64,000 bases of DNA, taken from positions 1-64,000 of the forward strand of contig NZ_JACJRS010000012.1 in NCBI RefSeq assembly GCF_014697375.1. The letters run 5' to 3'. Source of the DNA: Phormidium sp. FACHB-1136. Its GTDB lineage: Bacteria > Cyanobacteriota > Cyanobacteriia > Phormidesmidales > Phormidesmidaceae. The position numbers and the translations under genes were made by a program. Below the pieces are notes generated by a model. The model saw nothing but the letters and a program-made list of their open reading frames with translations, did not search any database and was not told where the DNA came from. This document shows, piece by piece, positions 3,198-13,040 of the stretch (position 1 is its first letter; the number at the start of each line of letters is the position of its first letter).

Positions 3198-4046
3198 TTA
3201 ATCAAACAACCTGCCCAACTGCTCACAGGTGCGCTCAATGCTGGCGATGCTGCCGGGGTTAACGAGGCCGAAATAGTCAAAGCTGTGGACTTGCCCCTGC
3301 TGGGTGGCTTGGATCTGTCCCCAAAAGGGTTCGCTCTTGAGTTGCTCTAGCAAATTTTCCCCGGCATCCACCACCAGCAGCACATCAGGATTCGCCGCCA
3401 GCACCTTCTCCTCCGGCAGGGTGATGTAACCATCGAAGGGGCTTTCTCCTTGTAGGTCGGCGGCCACATTATTCACCTTAAACTGAGCCAGAAAATCTCC
3501 AGCCCAGCTTGTTTTGTTAGGGCTAAGCAACGGCTGACGACTGACCAACACCAGCGTAGAAGGGCTGTCCGTTGGGGCCTGGGCCAAGCAGGCATCGTAG
3601 CGATCTAGCAAGGGCTGCGGGTCGGCCTCCAGGGTGGTGGCCAGGGCGGTGGTGAGATCGCGCAAGTCGGCCCAACTGTTGACCTCGGTGGTGAGGGTGG
3701 GGGTGCCCAGTTCTTCCAAGCGCTGGAGGGTACGGTCGTGAAACCCCGCTGCGCCAATCACCAGGGTCGGCTCTAGGGCCACAATTTGTTCTAAATCCGG
3801 CTCAGTGCGCCCCTCGCTAACCGTAGGCAAATTGGCAAACCGATCATCCCCCCGCAGTAGTTCATTGCCGGGAATGCCCACCAATGCCTCACTCTCCAGG
3901 GTTTGCACCAGGTCGGCAGTGAGGGAAGTGAGGGCCACGATCCGGGTTTTAGATTCATCGGCAGGCGGTTCGGCCAGGGGGGTATCTTGGCCGCTACAGG
4001 CGGCTAGAGGGAGCAGGAGAAGGGGAAGGAAGAGGGAGCGTTTCAT
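3198..4046 (-). CDS. ABC transporter substrate-binding lipoprotein (iron/heme/cobalamin type)
   Basis: This is the 282-residue periplasmic binding component of a FecB/BtuF-type (class III) ABC importer, which hands ferric siderophore, heme or cobalamin to the permease. I start it at the ATG that gives a clean lipoprotein signal, 'LLLLPLAAC', with Cys17 as the lipidation site; the frame stays open further upstream, but that extension overlaps a dispersed repeat. The two-lobed fold shows as 'TRIVALTSLTADLVQTL' and 'EKVLAANPDVLLVVDAG'. It is the last gene of the minus-strand import cluster, 118 bp after the TonB-dependent receptor. The ligand cannot be told from sequence. Confidence 0.85.
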   Translation of the reverse strand: MKRSLFLPLLLLPLAACSGQDTPLAEPPADESKTRIVALTSLTADLVQTLESEALVGIPGNELLRGDDRFANLPTVSEGRTEPDLEQIVALEPTLVIGAAGFHDRTLQRLEELGTPTLTTEVNSWADLRDLTTALATTLEADPQPLLDRYDACLAQAPTDSPSTLVLVSRQPLLSPNKTSWAGDFLAQFKVNNVAADLQGESPFDGYITLPEEKVLAANPDVLLVVDAGENLLEQLKSEPFWGQIQATQQGQVHSFDYFGLVNPGSIASIERTCEQLGRLFD

Positions 4047-4075
4047 GGGTGGATGGGTTGTAGGGTAGACGAGTC

Positions 4076-4128
4076 GTAGGGTGCATAACGCCAAGGCGAG
4101 GCTAGGGCCAGCGCGAAGCAATGCACCA
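4076..4128 (+). repeat. Dispersed ~50-bp repeat, copy 1
   Basis: The sequence begins GTAGGGTGCATAACGCCAAG and ends GCGAAGCAATGCACC, so its ends are inverted (GGTGCAT/ATGCACC). An inverted copy lies at 6820-6871. The two copies bracket the TonB-dependent receptor gene. Related copies occur at 29436-29463 and 31307-31358. Confidence 0.8.
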
Positions 4129-4164: not shown

Positions 4165-6768
4165 TTAAAACCGATAGCTCACCCCCAAACGTACATTTCT
4201 TCCGGCTTGACTAAATTGGGAAATTGCCTCATTGTTGGGACGATCTCGCACCTCGGAATATAGGAAATATTCTGTATCCAACAGGTTGTAAATCCCTAGG
4301 CTAATGCCCAGGTTAGGGGTGATGTTATAGGCTCCGATGGCATCCACCAGGGCGTAGGCATCGGGCACAAAGTTGGTGTTGTCTGCGGCTACACGGGCGC
4401 GGCCTGCAAAGGTGCCAATCAGTTCGGCCCGCCACTGGTTTTCGGGGGCTTGATAGCGCAGACCCGCCACGGCACTAAAGGGATCCACGGTATTGAGGGG
4501 TCGGTTGGTGGTGGTGTCATCCCCCTGGGCGAAGGCCAGACTGGCTAGCAGGCTAAAGCCATCGGTGCCGGGGCTAAAGCGATATTCACCACCCAATTCC
4601 ACCCCATAGATACGGGCGCTACCAATATTGATGGATTGAAACTGGCTGACCCGCTGGGTGGGCGGACAAACGGGGGCAGGAATTAAACAGCGGGTGCCCA
4701 CTAATTGTTCGGCGGCGATGAAATTGTTGTAGGTGTTGTAGAACCCGGTGAGGCGCAGATCAAACTGAGGAAAGTTGCCCCGAACGCCAATTTCAAAGCT
4801 GTTGCTCGATTCGGGCTGGAGGTCTGGATTAGACAGGGTTTCGTATTTGAAAAATGCTCCCGCTAGGTTAGTAAATCCGCTGGTAATTTCGCTGTAGAGG
4901 GGTGCCCGAAAACCACGGGCATATTGGCCATAGAAGGAGATTTCTGGGGTGGCTTCATAGAGCACCGCCAGCCGGGGAGATAGGGCTGAGGTGGTTAAAT
5001 CGACGGTTTCGCCGCGAAAGATGCCGTCGTCAATGGTTTGTAGATCGTAGTGATCAAAACGTAGGCCAGCAATCACACTCAGCGGCCCCATTTCCATTTC
5101 ATCCTGCACATAGAAACCCAGGCGCAGGGTGTTGGCATCGGCAAAGTCTTTGATGGGAAAGACAGAATCAGCCCCGGTACCAAAGACGTTGGTGGTGGCT
5201 CCGGTGCGTAGGTTGGTTTGGGTGCGATCTCGCGGACGGGAGTTAAAGGTTTGGGACACATCTACTCCGTAGGTGAGGCGGTGATCAATATTGCCCGTCG
5301 TGAAATCGCTACGCAGTTGAATATCGCCACCATAGATATTGCTGATGAACTGGTTGTTGCTGTCGCGCCGCACCCTAGAACCCGCAAATCCTGGGCCGAC
5401 GCCTGTGGGGCGAATTTCTTGGACAATTTCGGTGGTGTTGGCGGTTTGGTAATACAGTTGGCCCCTGGCAAATTGCAGGAAGGAGTCGCTGTCGGGGTCG
5501 TCAAACTCGTAGGTGAGGCTAAGGCGGGTGCGGTCGATGCGGTTTTCGCCATTGGTGCTGAGGGCGAGGGGATCGACGTTGCCCGGAGCGAGGACGTAGT
5601 TGGTGCGGCGGTTGATGTCTTCCAAAATGAGGCTGAGGCTGCTGACCTGATCGGGAACGTAGACGATGTTGCCATAGAGGTTGGTGTCGCCGATGTCGAT
5701 GCTGTCGGTGAATTCTGGTGGGGCAAAGTTGCTGCGTTCGCGGGCATCGCGACGGCTGACCACAAACACGCTTTCTAGGTCGTCATTGCGGAAGGCTAAC
5801 CTTGCCGCCGAATCAAACCCACCCACAGCGCTGGTGTAGAGGCTGCCCACATCTCCGGCAAAGGTATCCTCTGGCCCTAACAAATCGCTGGGCTGCAAGG
5901 AACGGAAGGAAATCACCCCACCCAGGGCATCGCTGCCGTAGAGGGTGGAGGCTGGGCCACGCAACACTTCCACCGCTTGCAGGGTGGAGAAATCTACATA
6001 GTCGCCCCGGCCCACCCGAAACCCACGCGGCGGTGCCCCCCCAAAGGAAAACTGGTCGGGCAGGCGAATGCCATCGACCTGAAACAGGATGCGGTTGCCC
6101 TCAATGCCGCGAATGTTGACGCTCTGGGTGCCGTAGCGCTGGAGTGCGCCACCCGCCGATACCCCCGGCTCGTAGCGCAGCAGGTCGCCAAGGCCTTCAA
6201 TTTGGTAGAACTCCAGATCCTCCAAATCAAACACGGTGACGGTGGCGGGCAGGTCGTCCACCTTACGGGGGGTGCGGGTGCCCGTGACGGTGATGCGTAG
6301 GGTGTCGCCGGGGGTAAATTCCACATCGATGGACTCATCGCCAGTTGCTTCCCCAGAGTCAGCATCAGTCCCGTTTTCTGCTCCCTCTCCCGATGAGTCC
6401 CCAGATTGGGAGAGGGCAGGGGCATCAGGGACACCCCCAGGGACAGAAGGCATCAGGGCTTGGCTGGTGGTTTCGGCGGGTTCTAGTTCTGTCAACAAGG
6501 GGGACGGCTGAGATTCGTCTGATTGGGTGGACTCTGCTGAGGTCGGGGGCACTTCGGCCTCGGTAGGGGCTGGGGTTGGGGTTGGGGGAACTAGTAATTG
6601 CAATTCAGAATTATTAAGGCTTGAAGATACTGTATTGACCTCTTCAGAAGACCCCGCCTCGGAAGAGCTTTCATGCGCTATATCCCAGATCAGGATTAGC
6701 AAGAATGGAGAGGCACAAACAAGAAAAATTCTCAATAAAAAACGCTGAAACATCTCTATACTCCTCAC
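4165..6768 (-). CDS. TonB-dependent outer membrane receptor, heme/hemoglobin-receptor-like
   Basis: This 867-residue protein is an outer membrane gated beta-barrel importer energised by TonB-ExbB-ExbD. It has an N-terminal signal or anchor segment ('FLLRIFLVCASPFLLILI'), an acidic Ser/Pro-rich stretch to about residue 145, a possible TonB-box region ('LRITVTGTRTPRKVDDLP'), the plug domain ('VNIRGIEGNRILFQVDGIRL', 'VEVLRGPASTLYGSDALGG') and a 22-strand-type barrel ending in 'NVRLGVSYRF' with terminal Phe. The barrel contains 'FRAP' near residue 617 and 'NPDL' about 30 residues later, a pair typical of heme receptors. No His lies between them, although classical heme receptors have one there, so a siderophore ligand is equally possible. 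It is transcribed with the ABC importer genes. Confidence 0.85.
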   Translation of the reverse strand: MRSIEMFQRFLLRIFLVCASPFLLILIWDIAHESSSEAGSSEEVNTVSSSLNNSELQLLVPPTPTPAPTEAEVPPTSAESTQSDESQPSPLLTELEPAETTSQALMPSVPGGVPDAPALSQSGDSSGEGAENGTDADSGEATGDESIDVEFTPGDTLRITVTGTRTPRKVDDLPATVTVFDLEDLEFYQIEGLGDLLRYEPGVSAGGALQRYGTQSVNIRGIEGNRILFQVDGIRLPDQFSFGGAPPRGFRVGRGDYVDFSTLQAVEVLRGPASTLYGSDALGGVISFRSLQPSDLLGPEDTFAGDVGSLYTSAVGGFDSAARLAFRNDDLESVFVVSRRDARERSNFAPPEFTDSIDIGDTNLYGNIVYVPDQVSSLSLILEDINRRTNYVLAPGNVDPLALSTNGENRIDRTRLSLTYEFDDPDSDSFLQFARGQLYYQTANTTEIVQEIRPTGVGPGFAGSRVRRDSNNQFISNIYGGDIQLRSDFTTGNIDHRLTYGVDVSQTFNSRPRDRTQTNLRTGATTNVFGTGADSVFPIKDFADANTLRLGFYVQDEMEMGPLSVIAGLRFDHYDLQTIDDGIFRGETVDLTTSALSPRLAVLYEATPEISFYGQYARGFRAPLYSEITSGFTNLAGAFFKYETLSNPDLQPESSNSFEIGVRGNFPQFDLRLTGFYNTYNNFIAAEQLVGTRCLIPAPVCPPTQRVSQFQSINIGSARIYGVELGGEYRFSPGTDGFSLLASLAFAQGDDTTTNRPLNTVDPFSAVAGLRYQAPENQWRAELIGTFAGRARVAADNTNFVPDAYALVDAIGAYNITPNLGISLGIYNLLDTEYFLYSEVRDRPNNEAISQFSQAGRNVRLGVSYRF

Positions 6769-6897: not shown

Positions 6898-7734
6898 TTA
6901 GCGTTCGCCCGCTGCTTCTAGCTCCGCCTTGGTTAGGCGCTCGGTTTCTGGACTGGCGATGCTGGCGGCGAGGGGGAAGACCTGTTGGCCGAAGGGGGTG
7001 GTGAAAATTTCGACTTCCACCTGAAAGACGGCTCGCAGGTTGTCGGGGGTGAGCACCTCCGTAGGGGGGCCAACGGCCCAAAGGCGACCCTGGCGCAGCA
7101 TGGCCATGCGATCCCCGTAGCGGGCGGCTAGGTTGATGTCGTGCAGCACGGTGATGATCGAGAGGGACTGGTCGCGGTTCAGCCGTTTCAGCAGTTCTAA
7201 AAGCTGGAGTTGGTAGTGGATGTCTAAAAAGGTGGTGGGTTCATCCAGCAGCAGCACCTGGGGATTTTGGGCTAGGGCCAGGGCCAAAAATGCCCGCTGA
7301 CGTTCGCCACCGGAGAGATCCGCCACGGGTCGATCTCGGTAGTGGGCAATTTCCGTCCAGGTGAGGGCTTGGTCTACTTGGTGCTGGCTCTCGCGGTCTA
7401 AATCCCACTGCCACCAGGGTTGATGGGGAGATCGGCCTAGGCTGACGAGTTGGTGGACGGTGAGGCCGTCGGGTAGGGTTTGCTGCTGGGGCAACAGGGC
7501 CAACCGCTGGGCAATGGCGGTGGGGGAAAGCTCGTGAATATCGCGTCCACAGAGCAGAACGCTGCCGCCCTGGGGTTTCAAAATGCGGCTGAGCAACCGC
7601 AGCAGGGTGGATTTGCCAGAGCCGTTGGCCCCCACTAGGCAGAGCCACTCTCCGGGTTCCACCGCCAAATTAACGTGGTGGACGATGGGCGACTGATCGT
7701 AGCCGCCGGACAAATTTCGCGATTCTAGGGGCAT
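6898..7734 (-). CDS. ABC transporter ATP-binding protein, FecE/HmuV type
   Basis: This 278-residue ATPase powers the FecCD-type permease encoded just before it. Walker A is 'GANGSGKST' near residue 35, the signature is 'LSGGERQR', Walker B is 'VLLLDEPT', and the switch His lies in 'TVLHDINLAARYGDR'. The frame stays open 20 codons upstream into the permease gene, but I start at the ATG 2 bases after the permease stop because 'MPLESRNLSGGY' is the usual family start. This near-zero spacing implies translational coupling. The helical-domain motif 'LVSLGRSPH' is typical of iron-complex importers. Confidence 0.9.
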   Translation of the reverse strand: MPLESRNLSGGYDQSPIVHHVNLAVEPGEWLCLVGANGSGKSTLLRLLSRILKPQGGSVLLCGRDIHELSPTAIAQRLALLPQQQTLPDGLTVHQLVSLGRSPHQPWWQWDLDRESQHQVDQALTWTEIAHYRDRPVADLSGGERQRAFLALALAQNPQVLLLDEPTTFLDIHYQLQLLELLKRLNRDQSLSIITVLHDINLAARYGDRMAMLRQGRLWAVGPPTEVLTPDNLRAVFQVEVEIFTTPFGQQVFPLAASIASPETERLTKAELEAAGER

Positions 7735-7735
7735 C

Positions 7736-8779
7736 TCAATGTCCTCCTTGGCTTCCACGGCGGCGATACAGCAGCCAAATAAACACGGGCGCACCCAAGA
7801 AGGCGGTGACTACGCCGACGGGCAATTCCACAGGGCCAGATCGAGCCGCCAAATCCGCCGCCGACAGCACCAGGGCACCCCCCAGGGCCGAAAAGGGCAG
7901 CACTAGGCGATAGTCTGTGCCCACCAGCAGGCGCACCCCGTGGGGCACAATCAACCCCACAAAGCCCACCAGTCCGGCAATGCTGGCGGCTCCGGCGGCG
8001 AGGAAGGTGGCGGCGGCCCCAATCAACAGGCGAGATCGCACCAGGGAGGTGCCCAACCCCACCGCCAGGTCATCGCCCAGGTTCAGTAGATTCACCTGCC
8101 GCGCCAGTAGGCAGGCCATCACCAAGGCCAGGATCATCGCTGGCCCCACTAGGCGCACCTCCGCCCAGCCGCGCCCGTTAAAGCTGCCGATCAGCCAGTT
8201 CAGAGCTGCCTGAATCCGGCCATCCCGCGCCATCAGCAGCATCAGGGACTGGATCGCGCCAAAGAAGGAACTGAAGGCCACCCCGCCCAAAATCAGCCGC
8301 TCTACGGAGAGCCGCCCCCGCTGGTAGGCCAACAGGTAGACTAGGGCCGTCGTCAAAATCGCCCCTAGCCACGCCCCCAGCGGCACCCACATCTGCCAAA
8401 GGCCCAGGGTGACCACCAGCACCACCACCAGCCCCGCCCCGGAGGAAATCCCCAGCAAAAAGGGACTGGCCAAGCCGTTGCGCAACATGCCCTGGAGCAA
8501 CGCCCCCGACACCCCCAACGCCGCCCCCACCAGCAATGCCGCCACTAGCCGAGGCAGCCGCAGATCCCACAGAATCACCTGGTGGGTGGCCTCGCCCTGG
8601 CGCAGCAGAGCGGCCCACAGTTCTGGCCCTGTCATGGCCACGGAACCCTGGGTGAGGGATAGCCCCACCACCAGGGCCAAGCCCAGCAGCAACAGCGCCA
8701 GGGCCATGAGGGTACGAGAACTCTGGCGTTTCAGGGGTCTAGGTGGACAATCAAGTTGGGGTCGTATCAGGGTCGCCAT
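7736..8779 (-). CDS. FecCD-family ABC transporter permease
   Basis: This 347-residue inner membrane permease belongs to the BtuC/FecCD/FhuB fold and should have ten membrane helices. Family motifs are visible: 'LRLPRLVAALLVGAALGVSG', 'GLASPFLLGISSGAG', 'GLVGFVGLIVPHGVRLLVG' (the ATPase-coupling loop) and 'ELPVGVVTAFLGAPVFIWLL' near the C terminus. It is followed directly by its ATPase and preceded by exbD, 110 bp upstream. That spacer contains short repeats of TTCAGGGGGTG but no obvious terminator. An IS1-type insertion in exbD could reduce its transcription if the cluster is read from the exbB promoter. Confidence 0.9.
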   Translation of the reverse strand: MATLIRPQLDCPPRPLKRQSSRTLMALALLLLGLALVVGLSLTQGSVAMTGPELWAALLRQGEATHQVILWDLRLPRLVAALLVGAALGVSGALLQGMLRNGLASPFLLGISSGAGLVVVLVVTLGLWQMWVPLGAWLGAILTTALVYLLAYQRGRLSVERLILGGVAFSSFFGAIQSLMLLMARDGRIQAALNWLIGSFNGRGWAEVRLVGPAMILALVMACLLARQVNLLNLGDDLAVGLGTSLVRSRLLIGAAATFLAAGAASIAGLVGFVGLIVPHGVRLLVGTDYRLVLPFSALGGALVLSAADLAARSGPVELPVGVVTAFLGAPVFIWLLYRRRGSQGGH

Positions 8780-9207
8780 TGGGTATCGTCTCTCTGCATC
8801 ATGGGGTTCAGGGGGTGTTCAGGGGCTGATCTGGCGAGGTTCAGGGGGTGATGATGGGGCTCATCTATGGGGCCATGGGTTAGGGATGGCTAGTCTCGCC
8901 GGGTGGCAATGCCGAGGGTGGCCCCCTCAATGGCCCGCAGCTCATCCATAACCGCCACGACCTGCCCATGGCTGACCGCTTCATCGGCGTTGATCACCAC
9001 CACGGTTTCCGGGGTGCCGTCCATCAAGTCGCGCACCCCGGCTTGCAGGTTTTCCAGGGAAATGGCCTCCCGATTCAGGGCAATCTCACCAGAATCCTCA
9101 ACGGTGACGGTAATGCGAGTGCGCTGCTGTAGCTCGGCACTGGCGGCCTGAGGCAGGTTCACAGGCAGCGCTTCCGACCGGGTGAGAAACAGGCTGGAAA
9201 TAATGAA

Positions 9208-10060
9208 GGTAGTGCTTTTTAGTAAAGGACGGAGAAAAAGTCGACCTCTCCCCGTTCTGCCAGGTTCTCCCTGACGTGGCGATTGTAGTCATGGATGAAC
9301 AGCCAGATCGCACCGATGTGATTCTCTAGCTTCTTGGAAAAGGACAGTGTCTTCCTCACCAACCGAGCAATCCGCTGCCTCAGGGTGTTGTTCAGGCGTT
9401 CGATGTAGTTTGTCAAACCGCTCTCTTTGCCTACTGCCGCATGTCGTTTGCTCGGAATCACGGTGACGTAGGCCTCCCAGTAATCGGTATAGACCTTGGC
9501 ACACTGTCGATAGACTGCTGGAATGGACTGCCATAGGGCAATTGCCGATTCCCTGGAGCGATCACCGATGTGACAGCCGATGATCTCTCGGGTATCGGCA
9601 TCGATGGCCACCCAGACCCACTGCTTGTTGCCTTTATGGTCGACAAAAGACCAGAGTTCATCCATCTGCACCTTGAGCTTGCCTTGGGCCTTGGGGGTGA
9701 CCTCGGCCACTTTGGGCACGGCTTCATAACAGGCGTTGACGTAGGTCTGGAGCCAGCTATCCGAGACACCCGTAGCCCTGGCGATACCGGCTAACGGAAT
9801 TTTCTCCAGCAGCAGTAGATCGACGAAAGCCCGAGTGTCTTTGCCCTTCGGCTTCCATTGGGGATCCTCGACGAATTGGCGGTTGCAGTCTCGACACTTG
9901 TAGTTTTGCTTACCGCGCCGGGTGGTACCGTTCTTGGAGATGTCGTGAGACCCACAGGTTGGACAGGTCATCTCGATGCACATGAAAACTACTCCCCCAA
10001 AATCTACAAATGCGACAGCGTGACCTTATTTCTCTCTATCCTTTACGTTAATCCACTACC
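9208..10060 (-). mobile_element. IS1-family insertion sequence, 853 bp
   Basis: Terminal inverted repeats begin GGTAGTG at 9208 and end CACTACC at 10060; over the outer 27 bases the two ends match at 20 positions and share an inner GTAAAGGA. The element is flanked by the direct repeat ATAATGAA at 9200-9207 and 10061-10068, an 8-bp target duplication typical of IS1. It carries a single transposase frame reading toward the left end. The intact frame, well-matched ends and perfect duplication indicate a recent insertion. Confidence 0.93.
9219..9983 (-). CDS. IS1-family transposase (single-frame type)
   Basis: This 254-residue transposase starts with a zinc-finger/HTH region ('CPTCGS' near residue 8 and 'YKCRDCNRQF' near 29). 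The catalytic DDE core follows: Asp in 'VQMDELWSFV', Asp in 'VYTDYWEAY' and Glu in 'TNYIERLNNTLRQR'. Unlike IS1 itself, which needs a frameshift between insA and insB, everything lies in one continuous frame. ATG codons at 9983 and 9971 are both possible starts. The stop is 11 bp from the left terminal repeat. It appears intact. Confidence 0.92.
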   Translation of the reverse strand: MCIEMTCPTCGSHDISKNGTTRRGKQNYKCRDCNRQFVEDPQWKPKGKDTRAFVDLLLLEKIPLAGIARATGVSDSWLQTYVNACYEAVPKVAEVTPKAQGKLKVQMDELWSFVDHKGNKQWVWVAIDADTREIIGCHIGDRSRESAIALWQSIPAVYRQCAKVYTDYWEAYVTVIPSKRHAAVGKESGLTNYIERLNNTLRQRIARLVRKTLSFSKKLENHIGAIWLFIHDYNRHVRENLAERGEVDFFSVLY

Positions 10061-10174
10061 ATAATGAAAAAGGTCAAAATCGCAAAGATGACATCGATCA
10101 TCGGCACAATATTTAGTTCAAAATCCGCTTCGGGTTCTTCAGGTAGATAGGGCATGGGGGGATGGATGGATACG

Positions 10175-10298: not shown

Positions 10299-10946
10299 CT
10301 ATCGCATGAGTGAGGCTTCCTGGAGTGAGTGCTGGCGCTCGTAGTGGGTTTCGTACAAAATCTCTAGCTGACCGCCGTACTCTTGAATCAACGCCACCTG
10401 ACGTTTGTAGAGGCCGCGAAAGAGGTTGGCAAAGATCAGGGTGCCGATGGCCACCACTAACCCGGCGGCGGTAGATACCAGGGCTTCGCTGATGCCTCCG
10501 GTGACGGCCCCGGTGTTGGTACTGAGGTCGCCCAGTTGCAGGGCCGCAAAGGATTGAATCAGCCCCAGGATGGTGCCCAGCAGGCCGAGTAGGGGAGCCA
10601 CGCTGATGATGGTGGCAAACACCGTGCTAAAGCGGCGCAGGTGGGGCAGTTCGGCCTGCATGGCGCTGGCCAAGGCCAGGTGAAACTGCTTGGGACTGGC
10701 CCCTTCAATGTCCAGGGCTTCTAGGAAAATGCGGGCGGTTGGAAGATTCACGTTCTGACGCAGCTTGGGGTAAACGTCCACGGGTGCTTGCCGATAGGTG
10801 CGCAGAATATCCTGCATCACCGGACGCTGACGGCGGTTGATGCGAAACCAGAAAAGCGAGCGCTCCACAATCAGCGCAATGGCCAAAATCGAAAACCCCA
10901 GCAGCGGCCACATCACAATGCCGCCTGCCGCAAAAATGGTACCCAT
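10299..10946 (-). CDS. exbB: ExbB/TolQ/MotA family proton channel protein
   Basis: This 215-residue inner membrane protein is the multimeric proton-channel subunit of the TonB energising complex. It has three predicted membrane helices: 'GIVMWPLLGFSILAIALIVE' near the N terminus, 'IISVAPLLGLLGTILGLIQS' and 'ALVSTAAGLVVAIGTLIFAN'. The last two carry the family signature (APLLGLLGT, STAAGL). It opens the minus-strand cluster and is divergent from tonB, so the two probably share the control region at 10947-11327. exbD follows after 143 bp but is interrupted, so ExbB lacks an intact locally encoded partner. Confidence 0.93.
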   Translation of the reverse strand: MGTIFAAGGIVMWPLLGFSILAIALIVERSLFWFRINRRQRPVMQDILRTYRQAPVDVYPKLRQNVNLPTARIFLEALDIEGASPKQFHLALASAMQAELPHLRRFSTVFATIISVAPLLGLLGTILGLIQSFAALQLGDLSTNTGAVTGGISEALVSTAAGLVVAIGTLIFANLFRGLYKRQVALIQEYGGQLEILYETHYERQHSLQEASLMR

Positions 10947-11327
10947 AGGTGCTTATTGAGAAATGCTGTCAAAAGACATTGACTCTTAATTAGGACTCAT
11001 TGTCAAGGTTTTGATTTTTTTAAGATCGCCGATAGCCACAAATCAGTCTTTGAACCGGTCGGCAGAATCTTGTATAGGGTGCGTCAGGCTTAGTCAGGAC
11101 ACCTAAAAGCCTTGATGAGCATGGGTTGTGCTAACACTTCTAGCCTGACCATGCCAACGCTACCCCCTCCTACAGCGGGGTTTACCTTTAATTCCTCCCC
11201 CTACTCCCCCTGATTTGGAGGAGGTCTTGCTGGCGATAGGGGAGACTTTTTCCGTAGACTTAATGAAACCAGTTGCCAATTGTGTAAGATGTCTGGGTAA
11301 ATCCTTGCCGTTGTTTTGGGTCGCCCC
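10947..11327. promoter_or_regulatory. Divergent exbB-tonB control region
   Basis: This 381-bp gap separates the two divergent genes and must hold both promoters. The A+T-rich stretch 10965-11025 is the best candidate. It contains TTGAC at 10979-10983 and GTCAA at 11002-11006 in inverted arrangement around TAATTA. This could be an operator, but I do not see a clear Fur-type 19-bp box. No cobalamin riboswitch core is visible. Confidence 0.4.
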
Positions 11328-13040
11328 ATGAGTCTCTCTGACCTCTGTAGCCAACAGTACCAGCGCGATCAGCAGGCCCTCCGCCGGATTTTGCTATGGG
11401 GTTTGCTGGGGTCGGTGGGCCTCCATACGGTGGGCCTTAGCCTCAGTCAGTTCAGGTTTTGGCAAGCCACCGCCGAAGACATCGCACCCATTGAACTGCT
11501 CATCACCGAAGCCCCACCCGATGAGGTCGATCTGCCGCCCGACCCGACCCCACCCGCCGCCCTGAGTAGCCAAGCCAACGACCCCGCCCCCGCTGCGGCT
11601 AGTGCGCCCCCCCGCCCTGCGTGGGCAGCCCCCCCTGTACTAGCGCCCCCGGTGGCGTCCCTGGCCCTGGCCCCACCCAAGCCAGCGGTGACCGAGCCTG
11701 AACCTCGACCGGAAACCCAATCCAATCCCCACACCGAACCCGACACCCAGACAGAATCGGCCCTAGACGCACCTGAGGCGGTGGACTCGGAGGAGGACTT
11801 GGCTGAGGACTTAGAGGACGAATCCCCCGACGTAGCGGAGGAACCCCCTGAGGCCGAAGCCCCCCCAGAGGAACCCATTGCAGAGGAAGTTCCAGAGGAA
11901 ATCGAAGCAACCCCAGCAGAAACCCCAGCAGAAACCATAGCCACCGAGCCTGCCGAATCCGCCGCTGCCCCCCAGGCTGAAAACCTGCGCGATCTGTTGC
12001 AACGCCTGCGTGAGGCCCACGAGGCTCAAAATCATACAAACCCAGCCATCGCCGCCGAAAGGTCTGGGTCGGTCACCACCCCATCGGCCACCACCCCATC
12101 GACTACCGCAGGCACGGGCAACGCCCCATCGGCCACCCCTGGCGACGAAACCGGAGTCGCCGTAGCACCTACCCCTAGGGCTCCTTCCCCCACTGGCGGC
12201 GGCGGACAAGGGTCGGGGTCGAGAACCGTGACCTGCGAAAGCTGTGTCCGGCCTAGCTATCCCAGCAGCGCCCTAGATGACGGGGTCGAAGGGCAACCCA
12301 TGGTCAACGTTGACATCAACCCCGACGGAACAGTCCGCCGCGTGACGCTCACTCGCTCCAGCGGAAATGCCGCCATCGACCAAGCCGCCATCGAAGCCGC
12401 CCAGCGATCTCGCTTTCAACCCGTTACAGGCGGGGCCAGCGTTCCCATCGAATATGACCTCACCATTGAGGGATCGCGCCGCCATCGAGACGCCCGCCGC
12501 CGAGGAGAAAGACGGTCGGTGGAAGTCCCCACCCCACTCGCTCCCACCGCCAACGAGTCGGCCCCTGCCCCCGCCGCATCACGCACGGATACCCTCACTC
12601 CACCTGCCGAAGAACCCAGGACTGAAGAACCCAGGACTGTTGAGGAACCTAGGGCTGCTGAGGAAGCTAGGGATGAGGAATCCAGTGCCGTTGAAGAACC
12701 CAGAGTTGAGAAACCTAGGGCTGTTGAAGCGCCTAGGACTGAGGAACCCAGGACGGAAGCGGCTCCCGCAACACCCGCTCCAGCGGTTGAACCCTCTGGG
12801 GCAATGGCTTCGCCCCCTGCCCCTGTCCCCCCCGTTCCAACGCCACCAAGCCCTGAGAGTGCAGAGTCGCCCCCTGCCCCTGCCCCTGCCCCTCCTGCCC
12901 CTCCTGCCCCTCCTGCCCCTCCTGCCCCTCCTGCTCCTGTGACTCCTGCCCCCGTCCCCGCCGCTCCGGCTCCAGCCCCTCCTGCTCCTGTCTCGCCGCC
13001 TGTGGCCCCCGTGGCTCCGGTGGTTGAAGACGAGGGCTGA
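11328..13040 (+). CDS. tonB: TonB family protein with C-terminal Pro-rich extension
   Basis: This 570-residue energy-transducing protein spans the periplasm from ExbB-ExbD to outer membrane receptors. I start at ATG 11328; the frame opens at TTG 11316. There is one N-terminal membrane helix ('RILLWGLLGSVGLHTVGLSL'), a long Pro/Glu-rich spacer (about residues 60-290), then a TonB C-terminal domain (about 300-385) with 'CVRPSYPSSALDDGVEGQPM', 'VDINPDGTVRRVTLTRSSGN' and 'AIEAAQRSRFQPV'. Unusually, about 190 further residues follow: EEPR-like repeats, then Pro/Ala repeats. TonB domains normally end the protein. The gene's 3' end abuts a transposase remnant, which may be connected with the extra tail. 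Confidence 0.85.
   Translation: MSLSDLCSQQYQRDQQALRRILLWGLLGSVGLHTVGLSLSQFRFWQATAEDIAPIELLITEAPPDEVDLPPDPTPPAALSSQANDPAPAAASAPPRPAWAAPPVLAPPVASLALAPPKPAVTEPEPRPETQSNPHTEPDTQTESALDAPEAVDSEEDLAEDLEDESPDVAEEPPEAEAPPEEPIAEEVPEEIEATPAETPAETIATEPAESAAAPQAENLRDLLQRLREAHEAQNHTNPAIAAERSGSVTTPSATTPSTTAGTGNAPSATPGDETGVAVAPTPRAPSPTGGGGQGSGSRTVTCESCVRPSYPSSALDDGVEGQPMVNVDINPDGTVRRVTLTRSSGNAAIDQAAIEAAQRSRFQPVTGGASVPIEYDLTIEGSRRHRDARRRGERRSVEVPTPLAPTANESAPAPAASRTDTLTPPAEEPRTEEPRTVEEPRAAEEARDEESSAVEEPRVEKPRAVEAPRTEEPRTEAAPATPAPAVEPSGAMASPPAPVPPVPTPPSPESAESPPAPAPAPPAPPAPPAPPAPPAPVTPAPVPAAPAPAPPAPVSPPVAPVAPVVEDEG
12891..12935 (+). repeat. 9-bp coding minisatellite (CCTCCTGCC)n
   Basis: Four perfect copies and one near copy of CCTCCTGCC encode Pro-Pro-Ala repeats in the TonB C-terminal tail. 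Such in-frame tandem units easily vary in number by replication slippage. Confidence 0.8.

Follow-up and report, generated by a model that had tools for sequence, protein, structure and literature searches.

The inactivation of accessory genes by insertion sequences is routine, and cyanobacteria are no exception. The enterobacterial element IS1 is organised as an insA-insB' frameshift pair, and members of the IS1 family with a single ORF are also known. Among cyanobacterial uptake systems, HutA1 and HutA2 of Anabaena sp. PCC 7120 (PMC10792254) are heme-type TonB-dependent receptors, a type shared by the receptor of the locus described here. The titles and abstracts found for insertion sequences in exbD and for cyanobacterial single-ORF IS1 elements contained no directly comparable case. 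Here, we analysed a window of 64,000 nucleotides (the whole stretch of DNA under study) from Phormidium sp. FACHB-1136, in which an exbD gene within a tonB and ABC importer locus is split by an IS1-family element (Table 1). The reading that we favour, with a probability of roughly 0.93, combines an IS1 insertion in a Nodosilinea exbD, loss of the ExbD encoded there, a probable loss or reduction of uptake and a late date for the event. The event is an ordinary insertional inactivation of exbD.

Table 1. Features of the interrupted exbD locus (window coordinates) and the ExbD paralogues encoded elsewhere in the genome.
Feature	Coordinates	Strand	Details
Periplasmic binding protein, iron/heme-type	3198..4121	-	PF01497
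TonB-dependent receptor, heme/hemoglobin subfamily	4165..6768	-	867 aa, plug and barrel complete
ABC transporter ATPase, FecE/heme type	6898..7794	-	
FecCD-type permease	7736..8779	-	347 aa, PF01032 304 bits
exbD 3' part	8890..9207	-	periplasmic domain
Target-site duplication ATAATGAA	9200..9207	not applicable	exact 8 bp
IS1-family insertion sequence	9208..10060	-	853 bp, single ORF
Terminal inverted repeat GGTAGTGCTTTTTAGTAAAGGA	9208..9229	+	
IS1-family transposase	9219..9983	-	254 aa, N-terminal zinc ribbon and DDE domain
Terminal inverted repeat GGTAGTGGATTAACGTAAAGGA	10039..10060	-	
Target-site duplication ATAATGAA	10061..10068	not applicable	exact 8 bp
exbD 5' part	10061..10155	-	start codon to inside single transmembrane helix
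exbB	10299..10946	-	215 aa, intact, 78-91% identity to genus ExbB
tonB, divergent	11316..13040	+	574 aa, TonB_C at residues 312-384
ExbD paralogue C204			alone; 145 aa, nearest, 52% identical to split ExbD
ExbD paralogue C113			with exbB, behind lpxB
ExbD paralogue C68			alone
ExbD paralogue C39			with exbB

The transposase was scored against the curated cut-offs of NCBIfam and Pfam models, and it exceeds those of the IS1 family model NF033558 (194 bits; cut-off 100), the Pfam IS1 DDE domain PF03400 (72 bits; cut-off 24) and NF050000 (56 bits). Its 254-codon ORF is uninterrupted, with no internal stops, and its reading direction (minus strand) matches that of the exbB-exbD operon. The two ends of the element form imperfect terminal inverted repeats which agree at 17 of 22 positions. 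The flanking 8-mer occurs twice on the plus strand of the window, on both occasions next to the element, and the chance that two given 8-mers are identical is ~2e-5 at this base composition. The likeness to the IS1 family (NF033558, PF03400) extends across the transposase fold with its zinc ribbon and DDE domain, the short length, the ~22-bp imperfect ends and the 8-bp target duplication. The element differs from enterobacterial IS1 in that the two-ORF programmed frameshift is absent, its place being taken by the single ORF; since single-ORF members exist, it stays within the IS1 family but outside the enterobacterial frameshift subgroup. The original prediction of an 853-bp IS1-family element with matching ends and an intact transposase was correct to the base in its coordinates, and the 8-bp direct repeat that it described is present as an exact copy at both flanks.

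The nearest relatives of the element are single-ORF elements within the genus (89% DNA identity), together with copies on plasmids of Kovacikia, Leptolyngbya and Pseudanabaena (68-71% protein identity); across the genus, related copies are dispersed at 73-89% DNA identity. Three copies of the subtype outside the window's genome are bounded by exact 8-bp duplications of their own (AAAACGAC, GAAGATCT and TAGAGAGT), and the single ORF recurs in two related copies of the subtype, of which the element is a typical member. Copies in the window's own genome were counted by sequence search, which returned one full-length copy and, as the next long match, a sequence only 76% identical. The insertion is for this reason not the product of a recent multiplication of this very element within the assembly, although collapsed repeats at contig ends could hide copies. 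A scan for promoters and terminators around the element gave fewer matches than shuffled sequence and is uninformative as to polarity.

The insertion point lies inside the one transmembrane helix of ExbD. The 5' piece retains the conserved membrane Asp (MIDV motif), but its reading frame runs into the element and ends after 35 codons, and the first in-frame start that the 3' piece could use, the GTG at 9162, lies beyond the transmembrane segment. Because the product of the 5' frame would be so short and any restart would lie beyond the helix, a working ExbD would not be expected from the split gene. At 861 bp, the insert is divisible by three and so leaves the host frame unshifted, but it contains stops. 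The flanks were joined with one copy of the repeat solely to display the empty site, which comprises 405 nt (134 aa and a stop) in frame via 'LTFFI-ISSLFLTRS', with no stops in the joined halves. Both halves match the ExbD/TolR domain PF02472 above its cut-off. Assignment to the ExbD of a TonB system is based on this domain across the joined halves, the membrane Asp, the adjacent exbB and the divergent tonB. The ends, repeat, transposase and in-frame empty site all agree with an exbD split by an IS1-family insertion, as had been proposed, and translation uncovered no frame shift in the 134-codon joined gene.

It had also been suggested that excision would restore the gene. As sequence arithmetic this holds, since the 134-aa frame returns when the element and one repeat are removed, but it is not an observed process. 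A reversible switch, in which the element leaves precisely by its 8-bp duplication and so toggles TonB energisation, would build on the same intact frame. Almost any insertion sequence that makes a target duplication leaves an in-frame gene after precise loss, however, and the frame argument is therefore not special and gives no evidence for a switch. As a rule, IS1-type elements seldom excise precisely, and titles and abstracts on the subject yielded no directly comparable case. The element was found at this exbD site in no other member of the genus examined, nor is there any sign of repeated insertion, and we consider such a switch extremely improbable. A mixed state, with an uninterrupted exbD in part of the population or in the real chromosome, has slightly more in its favour, given an assembly of 260 contigs with 3% estimated contamination, but it is still very improbable. 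The element lies inside an 80-kb contig, its sequence has no other full-length copy, the exact target duplication is not something that a misjoin would produce, and this exbD came up only once in the ExbD search of the genome.

Simple insertion into a previously intact gene also agrees with the state of exbD elsewhere in the genus. This type of exbD is uninterrupted in 15 of 24 other same-genus genomes (76-86% protein identity), and the intact orthologues are ~134-139 aa long with nearly invariant residues near the junction (LTFFI/ISSLFLTRS). By the named loci that carry it, the window is placed in Nodosilinea or its close allies, and the MAG CSSed165cm_216 (L119) has exbB, exbD, the FecCD permease and the ATPase in the order seen in the window. 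In genome G017, a second exbD copy on contig C236 (L199:1-125) starts at the same codons as the window's insertion (TCATTATC, residue 30-31), and the ~100 bases before it resemble, when read on the opposite strand, the C-terminal end of a different gene (DNELVFIGRNLEEMRLEESFREC). This copy was considered as a second interruption at the same codon and set aside as a probable contig-end chimera. A contig of the MAG SM2_5_2 (L121:8883) ends at exbD residue 28-29, near the insertion point, with no IS sequence visible there.

Comparison with these relatives also bears on the age of the insertion. The dN/dS of the joined exbD against ten relatives is 0.08-0.12 and that of intact sisters against one another is 0.08-0.13, a coarse test in which synonymous sites are near saturation (dS ~1 or more). 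At columns that are invariant in the other sequences, the joined gene has three residues of its own, no more than most sisters have. A gene released from selection for much of the time since the species split would show a higher dN/dS and more private residues; relative to the divergence from the sequenced sister species, the insertion is therefore probably a late event. For dating, the genome offered no sibling copy above 76% identity over most of the element length, and a search for a closely related strain with an empty site found none. The earlier description of the insertion as recent is thus favoured only indirectly, by the exact duplication, the intact transposase, the stop-free halves and the sister-like dN/dS.

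The rest of the locus is complete. The receptor exceeds the cut-offs of TIGR01786 (372 bits; cut-off 324) and TIGR01785 (349 bits; cut-off 317) and also matches PF00593 and PF07715, and the predicted role of the locus is heme- or iron-chelate uptake. ExbB, TonB, the receptor and the importer, including its FecCD permease, ATPase and binding protein, are intact as originally claimed. In TonB, the TonB_C domain lies mid-protein, ahead of a Pro-, Glu- and Ala-rich stretch of ~190 residues, its usual place being the very C-terminus.

A genome-wide search returned one TonB_C protein and one TonB-dependent receptor barrel, both at this locus, such that the insertion affects the sole TonB-linked uptake system detected in the genome. 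Across the genus, 15 genomes combine a strong TonB with this type of exbD, one incomplete genome has the exbD alone and nine have neither (Fisher p 5e-6, uncorrected for phylogeny). This co-occurrence, together with the lone TonB and lone receptor, speaks for the local ExbBD being the dedicated motor of this uptake system, so that its loss should have consequences. In sum, a single-ORF IS1-family element transposed into exbD of a tonB / exbB-exbD-fecCD-ATPase-receptor-binding protein locus, duplicating 8 bp and cutting ExbD within its sole transmembrane helix. The gene would then yield no working ExbD, and uptake through the single detected receptor would therefore probably be lost or reduced, unless one of the four ExbD paralogues substitutes.

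These paralogues came from the genome search for another exbD that had been put forward as a check, and all are full-length and above the Pfam cut-off; three other ExbB proteins are also encoded. The claim that the TonB complex is broken is consequently overstated: the local ExbD product is not expected to work and the only TonB and receptor are here, but with four other complete ExbD proteins present, loss of TonB energisation in the strain is graded as likely and no higher. The insertion could instead be physiologically silent, if another ExbD, most probably C204, were to pair with the local ExbB and energise TonB. The C204 type is present in nearly all members of the genus, and the TonB-ExbB-ExbD and TolA-TolQ-TolR systems of E. 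coli cross-complement (Braun and Herrmann 1993, as listed in PMC8597729, reference 80). Two members of the genus, G007 and G024, lack this exbD type yet have several receptor barrels: G007 has seven receptor matches and no TonB_C match, while G024 has six and a weak TonB_C match. The C204 type is also found, however, in six receptor-free genomes (G004, G005, G009, G010, G018 and G020), and its normal task is on this basis probably something other than TonB energisation. Two of the paralogues have ExbB partners of their own, and one of the two pairs lies in an lpx cluster. We regard a silent insertion as possible but doubtful, and inactivation with uptake probably lost or reduced as the better account.

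In the window's genome (G000), the C113 exbB-exbD pair (L202:1044-5187) is directly downstream of lpxB in an apparent lipid A gene cluster, a position which suggests an envelope role unrelated to TonB.

It seems unlikely that a non-dedicated ExbD paralogue has kept the sole TonB and sole receptor of the genome working since the dedicated ExbD was lost, but if so the strain would be a natural experiment in cyanobacterial cross-energisation. In any case it has modest value as a naturally occurring exbD mutant, with the single detected TonB and receptor adjoining and four ExbD paralogues as candidate substitutes.

The closest counterpart is the locus of Nodosilinea sp. P-1105 (L125), which has the window's gene order (exbB, exbD, FecCD permease, ATPase, receptor, binding protein) and whose ExbB and ExbD proteins are 85-91% identical to those of the window, but in which exbD is uninterrupted. 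Compared with HutA1 and HutA2 of Anabaena (PMC10792254), the window differs in uniting receptor, TonB, ExbBD and ABC importer in one locus, whose substrate is a prediction.
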